Assembly: GCA_028288285.1 (NCBI GenBank)
Contig: JAQBNZ010000198.1
Location: forward strand, 1-32,013
Origin: Mucilaginibacter sp.
GTDB lineage: Bacteria; Bacteroidota; Bacteroidia; Sphingobacteriales; Sphingobacteriaceae
DNA: 32,013 nt
Direction of reading: 5' to 3'
Shown: positions 11,297-24,784 of the stretch, in pieces
How the letters are laid out: every line of letters begins with the position of its first letter
Position numbering within the stretch: position 1 is the first letter of the stretch
Program-made: the position numbers and the translations under genes
Notes under the pieces: generated by a model
What the model saw: the letters and a program-made list of their open reading frames with translations, nothing else
What the model was told of the DNA's origin: nothing
The model's database searches: none

Positions 11297-12112
11297 ATGG
11301 AAACACAACAGCATATAGCCATTTTAGGCAGCGGCAATATTGGTTTAGCTTTGGCTAAAGGATTAGTAAAAGCAGGTATTTTTAAACCGCAACAAATTAC
11401 ACTCACTCGTCGTAATATTACTGCTTTGGCTGAACTGGAAGCCGAAGGTTATAACGTAACCAGCGATAATGCCTTGGCTGTAACCAAAGCTGACATTGTT
11501 GTTTTGGCCATACTGCCACAGCAACTAAACAAACTGCTTGACGAAATTCAACCCGCTGCCAATAAAACAAAACACCTTTTAATATCGGTAGTATCGGGTG
11601 TAAGTTGTGAGGATATCCGTAATCAACTGGACCTGGACGTGCAGGTAATTCGTGCCATGCCTAATACTGCTATCGCTATTGGCCAAAGTATGACTTGTAT
11701 AGCAACAGATAATGCCTCTACAGAGAACATTAGCCTTGTTAAATCATTGTTTGATACTGTGGGTGTAAGCATCCAGATAAACGAAGAATTAATGACATCG
11801 GCCACTGCGCTTTGTGCTTGCGGCATAGCTTTCTTCTTAAGGTCTATCCGTGCGGCATCACAAGGTGGCACCGAGATAGGCTTTCATGCTCATGATGCGT
11901 TAAAAATGGCCGCCCAAACGGCTAAGGGCGCTGCCGATCTTTTACTCCAGCTATCCTCCCATCCCGAGCAGGAAATTGATAAGGTTACATCTCCTAAAGG
12001 CTGTACCATAGCCGGACTAAATGAGATGGAGCACAACGGCTTCAGTTCCGCTATGATAAAAGGTATAAAAATGTCTGCCGAAAAAGCAGGTGTATTGTAT
12101 AAGAGCGAATAA
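11297..12112 (+). CDS. proC: Pyrroline-5-carboxylate reductase
   Basis: 271 aa; IAILGSGNIGLALAKGL, VIRAMPNTAIAIGQSMT, C-terminal SPKGCTIAGLNEME; 4 nt after argB. Confidence 0.93.
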   Translation: METQQHIAILGSGNIGLALAKGLVKAGIFKPQQITLTRRNITALAELEAEGYNVTSDNALAVTKADIVVLAILPQQLNKLLDEIQPAANKTKHLLISVVSGVSCEDIRNQLDLDVQVIRAMPNTAIAIGQSMTCIATDNASTENISLVKSLFDTVGVSIQINEELMTSATALCACGIAFFLRSIRAASQGGTEIGFHAHDALKMAAQTAKGAADLLLQLSSHPEQEIDKVTSPKGCTIAGLNEMEHNGFSSAMIKGIKMSAEKAGVLYKSE

Positions 12113-12192
12113 TTACTGAGAAATTAAAGCAATTAGTTCAACTTCAATCTTGGTTTGTTAAGGTTAGTCAACCTAATTCAGGGCAAGTCAGT

Positions 12193-12525
12193 AACCTACC
12201 CCGTTGTTTGTGTCCTCACAAACAATTGCATTCAGGTGTTTAAAAATTTCGGTGGGGACACCGAAATGAGTAGTTGGACGGTGATATATAATCTATCCAG
12301 CCGTTTGTGTACTCACAAACAGTTGCCTTTAAGTATTTAAAAATTTCGGTGGGGACACCGAAATGAGTAGTTGGACTGTGATATATAACCTACCCCGCTG
12401 TTTGTGTCCTCACAAACAGTTGCCTTCAGGTGTTTAAAAATTTCGGTGGGAACACCGAAATGAGTAGTTGGACGGTGATATATAACCTACCCCGCTGTTT
12501 GCGTCCTCACAAACAGTTGCCTTTA
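12193..12525 (+). repeat. 97-bp tandem repeat, 3 full units plus a partial fourth, each full unit carrying two hairpins
   Basis: Unit starts at 12193, 12290, 12387 and 12484 (exact 97-bp spacing). Hairpin 1: (T/C)TGTTTGTG-TCCT-CACAAACA(A/G). Hairpin 2: ATTTCGGTG-GGGA/GGAA-CACCGAAAT. Confidence 0.93.
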
Positions 12526-12544
12526 GCATGTGCTTAAAGATTTC

Positions 12545-12566
12545 ACCACAGGGCACAAAGGGAGAT
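12545..12566. repeat. Degenerate fragment of the ACCACAGAG-type element
   Basis: ACCACAGGGCACAAAGGGAGAT resembles the arms of the 10282-10442 element. Confidence 0.4.
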
Positions 12567-12697
12567 TGACACCAAATTTTCTTCTTACCAGATTTATTTT
12601 TTTTATTATGAAGACAGCCTCTTGTAACTTTTTCATATCAAAGTCATCCTCCAAGTTATTTTTTAAGATATTTAAGAGTTAATCAGACTTTTTAAAT

Positions 12698-15505
12698 ATG
12701 AAGAAACTATTACTACCTGTATTTTTATTTGTCGCTTTTATTGCCTCTGCACAAAAAGTGTCCAAGAAACCGCTTGACCATACCGTTTATGATGGATGGC
12801 AAAATATTGCCAATGAACGTATCAGTAATGATGGTAAATATGTATTGTATGTAATAAAACCACAGGAGGGCGATGCCAATCTGGTAATTACTGATAGTAA
12901 AAATAGCAGTAAGTTAAATATTCCGCGTGCAGATACTGTACGTATCACTGCTGACTCAAAATACGCGGCGTTTCTGATAAGGCCTTTCTTTAAGGATACC
13001 CGCCTGGCCAGGATCAAAAAGAAAAAACCTGCCGAGTTTCCAAAAGATACGCTGGGCATAATAGCTTTAGGCAAAAACCAGGTAGAAAAGATTCCGGCTA
13101 TAAGATCATTTAAAATTGCCGATAAAGCATCAGTAATTGCTTATTTAATGCCTGCTGATTCATTGAAGAAACCTGCATCATCAGACACTTCGAAAAAAGC
13201 AATTGCCACAACAATAGCCCCGCCAATTCGTGACGGTGCCGAGCTTACTGTTAAAGAATTAATTAGCGGTAAAACCCGCACTTTTAAATATGTTACAGAG
13301 TATCAGTTAAGTAAAAATGGCAAACTACTGGCCTTTTCTGTTACAGCTCCCAAAAAATCAAAAGATGTAAAATCGGGGCTATTTGTTTATGATGTTGAGA
13401 AAGATACTTTAAAAGCAGTAAGCATGGGCCGTGGTAATTACCGCAATATCACTTTTGATGATGCTGCCAAACAATTGGCTTTTACAGCCGAAAAGAACCC
13501 CGAGAAAGCGCAGGTAAAACCGTTTAAATTATACTATTACCAAATTGGTAAAGATAGTGCCGAAGTTATAGCTGCACCAAAATCGGCAGGTATGCCGGCT
13601 AAGTGGGCTGTTAGCGGTGATGGTCGTGTATATTTTAGCAAGAGCGGCAGCAACCTTTTCTTTGGCACCGCCCCTATCCCCAAGCCTGCTGATACTACCA
13701 TTGTTGATTTTGAAGTGGCCCGGTTGGATATATGGAACTATAAAGACGATTACCTGCAGCCACAACAGTTAAAAAGCCTGCAACGCGAGCTTAAACGTAA
13801 TTATCTTGCTGTAATACACCCTGCCGAGGCTGACAAAAAGATGGTACAATTAGCTGATATAAATATTCAGAACGTGCTAATATCTGATAATAATAATGCA
13901 GAATACGCCCTGGGCCTTACTGATACCGGTGCCCGTGTACAATCACAATGGGAAGGTGGCAGTAACCAGGAAGCTTACCTGATAAACGTTAAAACCGGGG
14001 AGCGTAAACTAATAAACAGTCGGTTAAAGGGTCGCTACAGCATTTCGCCGGGTGGTAACTACGTGCTTTGGTTTGATTCAAAAGATCAAAACTGGCATAG
14101 CTATGCAATTGCCACAGACAAAAAAGTAAACTTAACCGCATCTACCAATGTTAAATGGGGCGATGAAGATAACGATGTGCCGGATGACCCATCAGCTTAC
14201 GGCGTTGCAGATTGGGAACAAGGTGATAAAAACGTGCTGATATATGACCGCTATGATATCTGGAGCATTGACCCTGCAACAGGCGCTGCCACAAACTTTA
14301 CCAATGGTATAGGCCGCAAAAACAAACTGGAGTTTAGGTATAACAGTACAGATCCGGATGAGAAATTCATCCCCAATAAAAAAGTACTTTGGATGATTGT
14401 CCAGAATGATGATAACAAGCAATGGGGATATTATAAGAAACAAATAGGCACAGTAACCGTACCGGTAAAAGTTGTAATGGCACCAAACGGTTTCAGCGGT
14501 TTACAAAAAGCCAAAAATGCCAATAACTTTATCTACACCAAATACAGCTACACACAATCACCAGATCTGTATGTATCAACAGACCTGAAAAAAGAAACTA
14601 AGCTAAGCGCTATAAACCCGCAGCAGGCCGAGTACAACTGGGGTACTGCTGAACTGGTACAATGGACAACCCCAAAAGGTTATCATTCAAAAGGTATCTT
14701 ATACAAACCGGAGAATTTTGATCCGACAAAAAAATATCCTTTAATAGCTTATTTTTATGAAAAATTAAGTGAGGGTTTGTATTCTTATGTACCACCGGCA
14801 CCTACTCCGTCAAGATTACCTATTTCATGGTTTGTAAGTAACGGTTATTTGGTTTTTGCACCAGATATTAGCTACGAAGCCGGTCACCCGGGAGCATCAG
14901 CAGTTGAGTTTGTTAACTCGGGCGTTGAGGCTTTAAAGAAAAATGCCTGGGTTGATGCCGCGCATATTGGCATACAGGGCCAAAGCTGGGGCGGTTACCA
15001 GGTTGCTTATTTAATTACCCAAACCAATATGTATGCCGCGGCATGGGCAGGTGCACCTGTTGCCAACATGACCTCGGCTTACGGTGGTATCCGCTGGGAA
15101 AGTGGCGTTAATAGGCAGTTCCAGTATGAAAAAACACAAAGCCGTATTGGAGCTACCCTGTGGGATAAACCGCAATTGTATATTGATAATTCGCCGCTGT
15201 TTATGCTACCAAAAGTTAAAACCCCGGTGGTTATTATGTCTAACGATGCGGATGGAGCTGTGCCATGGTACCAGGGTATTGAAATGTTTACTGCACTGCG
15301 CAGGTTAAATAAACCTGTATGGCTACTGCAATATAATGATGAGGCCCATAACCTGGTAAAACGTCAGAACCGTAAAGACATATCTATCCGTGAAGCACAG
15401 TTCTTTGACCATTTCCTGAAAGGGGCCCCTATGCCGGTTTGGCTGGCCAAAGGTGTACCTGCTGTTGATAAAGGAAAAGACTGGGGATTTGATTTGGTGA
15501 AATAG
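12698..15505 (+). CDS. S9-family (prolyl oligopeptidase-like) secreted peptidase
   Basis: 935 aa; signal peptide [35 protein letters not shown] (GxSxGG nucleophile), late [11 protein letters not shown] and DEAHNL motifs. Confidence 0.92.
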
Positions 15506-15538
15506 TAGAAGTATAATAAAATAGTAGAAGTATAAAAA
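15501..15538 (+). repeat. 19-bp direct tandem duplication spanning the S9 peptidase stop codon
   Basis: AATAGTAGAAGTATAATAA followed by AATAGTAGAAGTATAAAAA. Confidence 0.8.
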
Positions 15539-15539
15539 A

Positions 15540-15640
15540 TATGTCATTGCGAGCGATAGCGCGGCAATCTCGTAGCCAGTGCATGATCGCCTTGCATACT
15601 ACAAGATTGCCGCGTCGTTTCACTCCTCGCAATGACATAT
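15540..15640. repeat. Long imperfect palindromic (MITE/REPIN-like) element between convergent genes
   Basis: TATGTCATTGCGAG...CGCGGCAATCTcGTAG paired with CTAcAAGATTGCCGCG...CTCGCAATGACATA. Confidence 0.8.
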
Positions 15641-24742: not shown

Positions 24743-24784
24743 TTAAAGTACTCTTTAATTATTTTAAAGTACTCTTTAATTATT
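24743..24784 (+). repeat. 21-bp perfect tandem duplication, each copy a small hairpin
   Basis: (TTAAAGTACTCTTTAATTATT)x2; TTAAAG-TACT-CTTTAA in each. Confidence 0.85.

Follow-up and report, generated by a model that had tools for sequence, protein, structure and literature searches.

The 97-bp tandem array in the window (the whole 32,013-nucleotide stretch analysed here, positions 1 to 32,013 of Mucilaginibacter sp. contig JAQBNZ010000198.1) is very probably a tandemly amplified BIME of about four units, each harboring two REP hairpins of the same family in inverted orientation. The BIME array occupies the gap between a putative proC gene (pyrroline-5-carboxylate reductase; 11297..12112, plus strand) and a gene for a putative S9-type prolyl oligopeptidase (12698..15505, plus strand), both named from their sequences. 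As judged by sequence comparison between loci, its hairpins belong to a dispersed, intergenic family of inverted pairs whose relatives flank RAYT genes; the stem sequences differ from one RAYT locus to the next, and the GTG-TCCY-CAC tip and a 5' CC tag are constant.

The array was delimited by TRF at 12192-12523, with a period of 97 bp, 3.4 copies, 90% matches and a score of 566, clearly the highest among the three tandem arrays of the window; this bears out the repeat that a preliminary description had placed at 12193-12525. Units 1 to 3, defined by TRF and alignment, span 12192..12288, 12289..12385 and 12386..12482, and differ over their 97 positions by 12 (units 1 and 2), 4 (units 1 and 3) and 10 (units 2 and 3) mismatches. 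The three full units recognized previously therefore stand; the fourth, considered to be partial, is a decayed full unit (12483..12578) that extends to about 12578 in the alignment with single-copy homologues in C257 and L129, its hairpin 1 being kept with one mismatch and its hairpin 2 decayed. TRF also detected two short duplications in tandem elsewhere in the window, perfect or near-perfect, one of 21 bp at 24743-24784 and one of 19 bp at 15500-15541. Positions 1-97 of the window carry a Bacteroidales small SRP RNA (RF04183, 86.4 bits) that is truncated by the contig edge.

Hairpin 1 reads CCTACCCCG-(T/C)TGTTTGTG-TCCT-CACAAACA(A/G) on the plus strand, and hairpin 2 reads CCAACTACTC-ATTTCGGTG-TCCC-CACCGAAAT on the minus strand. 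Both present the same layout, consisting of a 5' pyrimidine-rich tag, a stem, the GTG-TCCY-CAC tip and the returning stem, and have the tip GTGTCCYCAC in common. Hairpin 2, read on the minus strand, is thus homologous to hairpin 1, of which it is an inverted copy that has diverged. Given this homology, the 97-bp unit is an inverted pair of one kind of hairpin, that is, an inverted REP pair (BIME) with its tags facing outward, and the array is a tandem BIME. Hairpin 1 occurs on the plus strand at 12204..12225 (unit 1, with the tag CCTACCCCG before it at 12195-12203), 12301..12322 (unit 2, one mismatch), 12398..12419 (unit 3) and 12495..12516 (unit 4, one mismatch), scoring 44.5, 20.4, 43.2 and 29.1 bits, respectively, with R1, a covariance model of 72 distinct hairpins from which those of the window were left out. 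Hairpin 2 occurs on the minus strand at 12246..12267 (unit 1, with CCAACTACTC ahead of it on that strand at 12268-12277), 12343..12364 (unit 2) and 12440..12461 (unit 3, minus-strand loop TTCC), scoring 32.2, 32.2 and 23.5 bits. The hairpin details reported in the preliminary description were found in the sequence: the outer pair of hairpin 1 changes from T-A in copy 1 to C-G in copies 3 and 4, copies 2 and 4 each have one C/A mismatch in this hairpin, the 9-bp stem of hairpin 2 (ATTTCGGTG/CACCGAAAT) is the same in copies 1-3, and its plus-strand loops in these copies are GGGA, GGGA and GGAA. Units fold better than shuffles on both strands (z of -2.2 to -3.6), so that folding favours neither strand.

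Homologous units in related genomes, proposed previously as a check, are indeed present. Comparison of the array by BLAST with 100 genomes (its own and those of relatives) recovered matches in 19 of them, mostly short and dispersed, among which inverted pairs 30-60 bp apart were frequent. Its own genome contains 96 hairpins at E<1 according to R1, distributed in 39 clusters, mostly as inverted pairs. Neighbouring hairpins are inverted with respect to each other in 25 of 33 cases in this genome and in 79 of 101 cases in pattern-fetched loci elsewhere. Nearly all of the hairpins examined are intergenic (77/79, versus 28% of the surrounding bases, as assessed by simple ORF calls), and the 25 clusters with classifiable gene context lie between co-directional (16) or convergent (9) genes, and never between divergent ones. 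Two subfamilies can be distinguished, one with TCCY tips, to which the hairpins of the window belong, and one with TTGT tips and a GTTGTTG stem. A GTDB pattern scan gave, among the matches listed, Mucilaginibacter, Bernardetiaceae and the Cytophagales genera Arcicella, Emticicia, Dyadobacter, Runella and Lacihabitans. No DNA match to the array was found in the plasmid and phage collections searched.

Contig C257 of the same genome and Mucilaginibacter sp. RYN_305 (L129) each contain a single copy of the full unit with its spacer; the two have a similar downstream flank and therefore look like one old insertion. An empty site was found in genome G011, where only about 80 bp separate the same two flanking genes and the array is absent. 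A TGTAACTTTTTCAT-like stretch precedes the S9 peptidase gene at 12615-12640 of the window and is also seen ahead of this gene in L244, L248 and L250; it is a possible promoter, undamaged by the array. Further tandem arrays of the hairpin family were observed at L147 (apparently G015:C2 82290-82872) and L045 (apparently G015:C61 24604-25148), one made of inverted pairs with a 120-bp period, the other of hairpins that all face the same way with an 85-bp period.

Stem substitutions among the homologues are compensatory. Changes on both sides occur in 7 of the 10 stem pairs, with 140 cells versus 33 in shuffles of the 72 hairpins; these hairpins were picked for pairing, which inflates the percentage paired, while the spread of stems is real. 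A less biased count, which agrees, is provided by the cores near RAYT genes, 58 of 62 of which form 5 or more of the 7 stem pairs. This covariation shows selection on, or copying of, the hairpin and is silent as to whether RNA or DNA is involved, but linkage to a transposase of single-stranded DNA and the occurrence of both orientations favour a DNA hairpin.

Such linkage is seen in gaps of about 600 bp inside the hairpin clusters of L053, L098, L082, L116, L119 and L103, which hold RAYT genes. The encoded proteins have 173-180 aa and motifs of the NHIH, FWQ and YIHxNP type, the second being FW[QEK] among the RAYTs as a whole, and those tested match NCBIfam NF047646 (REP_Tyr_transpos) with 61-80 bits, just below the curated cut-off of 80. 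Pfam hmmscan of three of them gave no match, and the sole match among solved structures is a weak one to E. coli TnpArep (4er8, E=0.047). A search of the genus with one RAYT recovered 7 close genes, which are 63-71% identical to it, and a second tier of genes with identities of about 37-44%. The close RAYTs have 173 aa, NHIH, FWQ and a last motif YIH[LTYN]NP with a variable fourth residue. All 7 are flanked by hairpins with TCCY-type tips, with stems beside the tip that differ among loci (GGCG, TGCC, TGTC, GTCT and TTCG), and GTG-TT[TG]T-CAC hairpins lie beside 8 of the 9 second-tier genes. One second-tier RAYT (L190, G010:C2:2852811-2856299) lies within a large REP cluster of eleven GTGTTTTCAC hairpins, which occur in either orientation. 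None of 91 control loci (14 distant RAYT, 29 IS200-like, 29 proC and 19 S9) contains a paired core in which 5 or more of the 7 stem pairs form. The CC tag is on the 5' side in 22 of the 24 hairpins near close RAYTs, in loci fetched by protein search, and its mirror GG is on the 3' side in only one of 24, indicating that the element has a direction. GT[AG]G was sought on the 5' side of the hairpins and is not present, the tag of the family being CC(C)(G); the GTAG seen on the plus strand beside hairpin 2 sits 3' of this hairpin and reads CTAC on the tagged strand.

The genome to which the window belongs has a RAYT pseudogene (C163:1210-1728) with one TAA stop, followed by alternating hairpins, one of which, TTTCGGTG-TCYT-CACCGAAA, has a stem core identical to that of hairpin 2 of the window. 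A second, more degraded RAYT copy occurs in C215 among TTGT-type hairpins. Since this assembly is about 76% complete, an intact RAYT gene may be missing from it. Across the genus, RAYT genes were detected at E<=1e-25 in 16 of 38 genomes, all 16 of which contain hairpins, and none of the 9 hairpin-free genomes of the 38 has a close RAYT (Fisher p = 0.005, a value that serves only as a guide because the genomes are related). Hairpins are nevertheless present in 13 of the 22 genomes without a close RAYT, where they could be relics, belong with unassembled genes or have been moved by another enzyme. Genome G026, a single contig of 6.0 Mb, has 29 hairpins and no close RAYT gene, so that its hairpins may be relics or may owe their movement to another enzyme.

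By analogy with the REPs of E. coli, which are cut and rejoined by TnpAREP (PMC6006769), the RAYT, a TnpAREP-type HUH/Y1 transposase, would bind the hairpin in single-stranded form, for example on the lagging-strand template, cleave beside its 5' tag and then rejoin the ends. The hairpin pair could thereby spread non-autonomously, and the array may have been born at a first copy by repeated processing or by slippage or unequal recombination. Since the hairpin would itself be the DNA that the enzyme acts on, covariation of the stem would be maintained. As the RAYT found in the same genome is a pseudogene, the array is perhaps only a relic today. Any influence of it on the ends of the proC mRNA would be secondary. 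A more tentative proposal, which may well prove wrong, is that RAYTs of this lineage recognize the near-invariant GTG-TCCY-CAC tip together with a 5' CC tag that replaces the GTAG guide, that the stem can drift freely along with each RAYT, and that sister RAYTs read GTG-TTKT-CAC. If true, this mode of recognition would be unlike that of E. coli TnpAREP. The analysis yields a concrete sequence rule by which RAYT-linked hairpins of Bacteroidota can be searched for. No paper was found when the literature was searched for the tip sequence.

Among the options raised in the preliminary description, that of an amplified REP-like DNA hairpin is strongly supported, and those of a tandem small RNA or a protein-binding RNA array are not. 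The covarying stems, the folding of both strands and the location downstream of a plus-strand gene could all be accommodated by a plus-strand RNA with conserved GNRA loops, yet the hairpin occurs in both orientations within each unit, so that no strand is special. The argument from the GNRA loop to a plus-strand RNA fails, as what looks like GNRA in hairpin 2 is the TCCC loop seen from the complementary strand; among 310 homologous hairpins, a loop of this kind lies opposite the tagged strand in no more than 94 and on the tagged strand in none. Neither a conserved strand and position nor a described RNA family, as would be expected of a structured small RNA, was found: Rfam gave no match on the array at the gathering cut-off or at E<=1, and the position next to proC or the peptidase is not conserved. 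Dispersion and RAYT linkage would also be left unexplained, making an RNA array extremely improbable. This case calls for caution, in that covariation within a tandem repeat and a GNRA-like loop can stem from a DNA hairpin element and not from RNA.

The location downstream of proC, to which meaning had been attached, turned out not to be conserved, no such hairpin being found at the proC of 29 relatives or at 19 S9-fetched loci; on the same grounds, a conserved cis-element of either gene was rejected. This also bears on the possibility that the copies are slippage-amplified transcription terminators of proC or stabilisers of its mRNA 3' end. Copies do sit between genes and avoid divergent gaps, a role at 3' ends, at the RNA level, has been proposed for REPs (PMC3733652), and three terminator-like sites were predicted in the region versus 0.5 in shuffles, two of them being array hairpins. 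However, one of these two faces the minus strand, the other is followed by AGTTGCCTTT with no clean T run, no relative checked has hairpins at this location, and a 5' tag and linkage to RAYT genes are foreign to terminators. A terminator or stabiliser origin is thus very unlikely, although such a role is possible as a side effect of the BIME. Hairpin ends of like size are known in IS200/IS605, and IS200-like genes occur in the same genome, as would suit a MITE or a remnant of a conventional insertion sequence. However, none of the 29 IS200-like loci has this tip with a paired stem, on which ground IS200/IS605 ends were rejected, the hairpins flank RAYT genes instead, and the units, which occur as inverted pairs and arrays, contain no transposase remnant; the probability of this origin is close to nil.

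The reading of the array as a tandem BIME agrees with what is known of such elements. Inverted REP pairs are termed BIMEs or REPINs (PMC6006769), and, like those of E. coli and Pseudomonas, the hairpins described here are short palindromes of 20-40 bp, mainly extragenic, arranged in inverted pairs and occasionally in tandem arrays, and tagged on one side only. Again as in those species, copies number from tens to hundreds and are dispersed (96 in this genome), and there is linkage to a RAYT gene that has such hairpins on its flanks. They differ in that the tag is rich in pyrimidines and ends in CC, in place of GTAG, the 5' GT[AG]G at the hairpin foot of canonical GTAG REPs being absent, and in that the apical GTG-TCCY-CAC is near-invariant while the stem varies between RAYT loci. 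A one-sided tag on a short hairpin and inverted dimers between genes are shared with the GTAG and CGTC REP superfamilies (PMC3733652), but neither of these tags occurs here and, in contrast to CGTC REPs, the hairpins are linked to a transposase gene. There is also a likeness to the published description of RAYT subclass 2.6 (group 5), which is found mostly in Bacteroidetes and whose proteins, of about 179 aa, have the motifs NH[LIV]H, WQ and YIH[QN]NP; the genes have 'atypical' structures on their flanks that lack GT[AG]G and are copied elsewhere in the genome (PMC6006769). The RAYTs found here, with 173-178 aa, NHIH, FWQ and YIHxNP, agree with this description, as do their flanking hairpins, which lack GT[AG]G and have further copies elsewhere in the genome. 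The array fits this kind in all features tested except the GTAG tag, which is also absent from subclass 2.6, and on these sequence features it can be assigned to the REP/BIME type of this subclass. RAYT-linked hairpins of Bacteroidota that appeared 'atypical' in the 2018 survey (PMC6006769) would thus form BIME pairs and tandem arrays.
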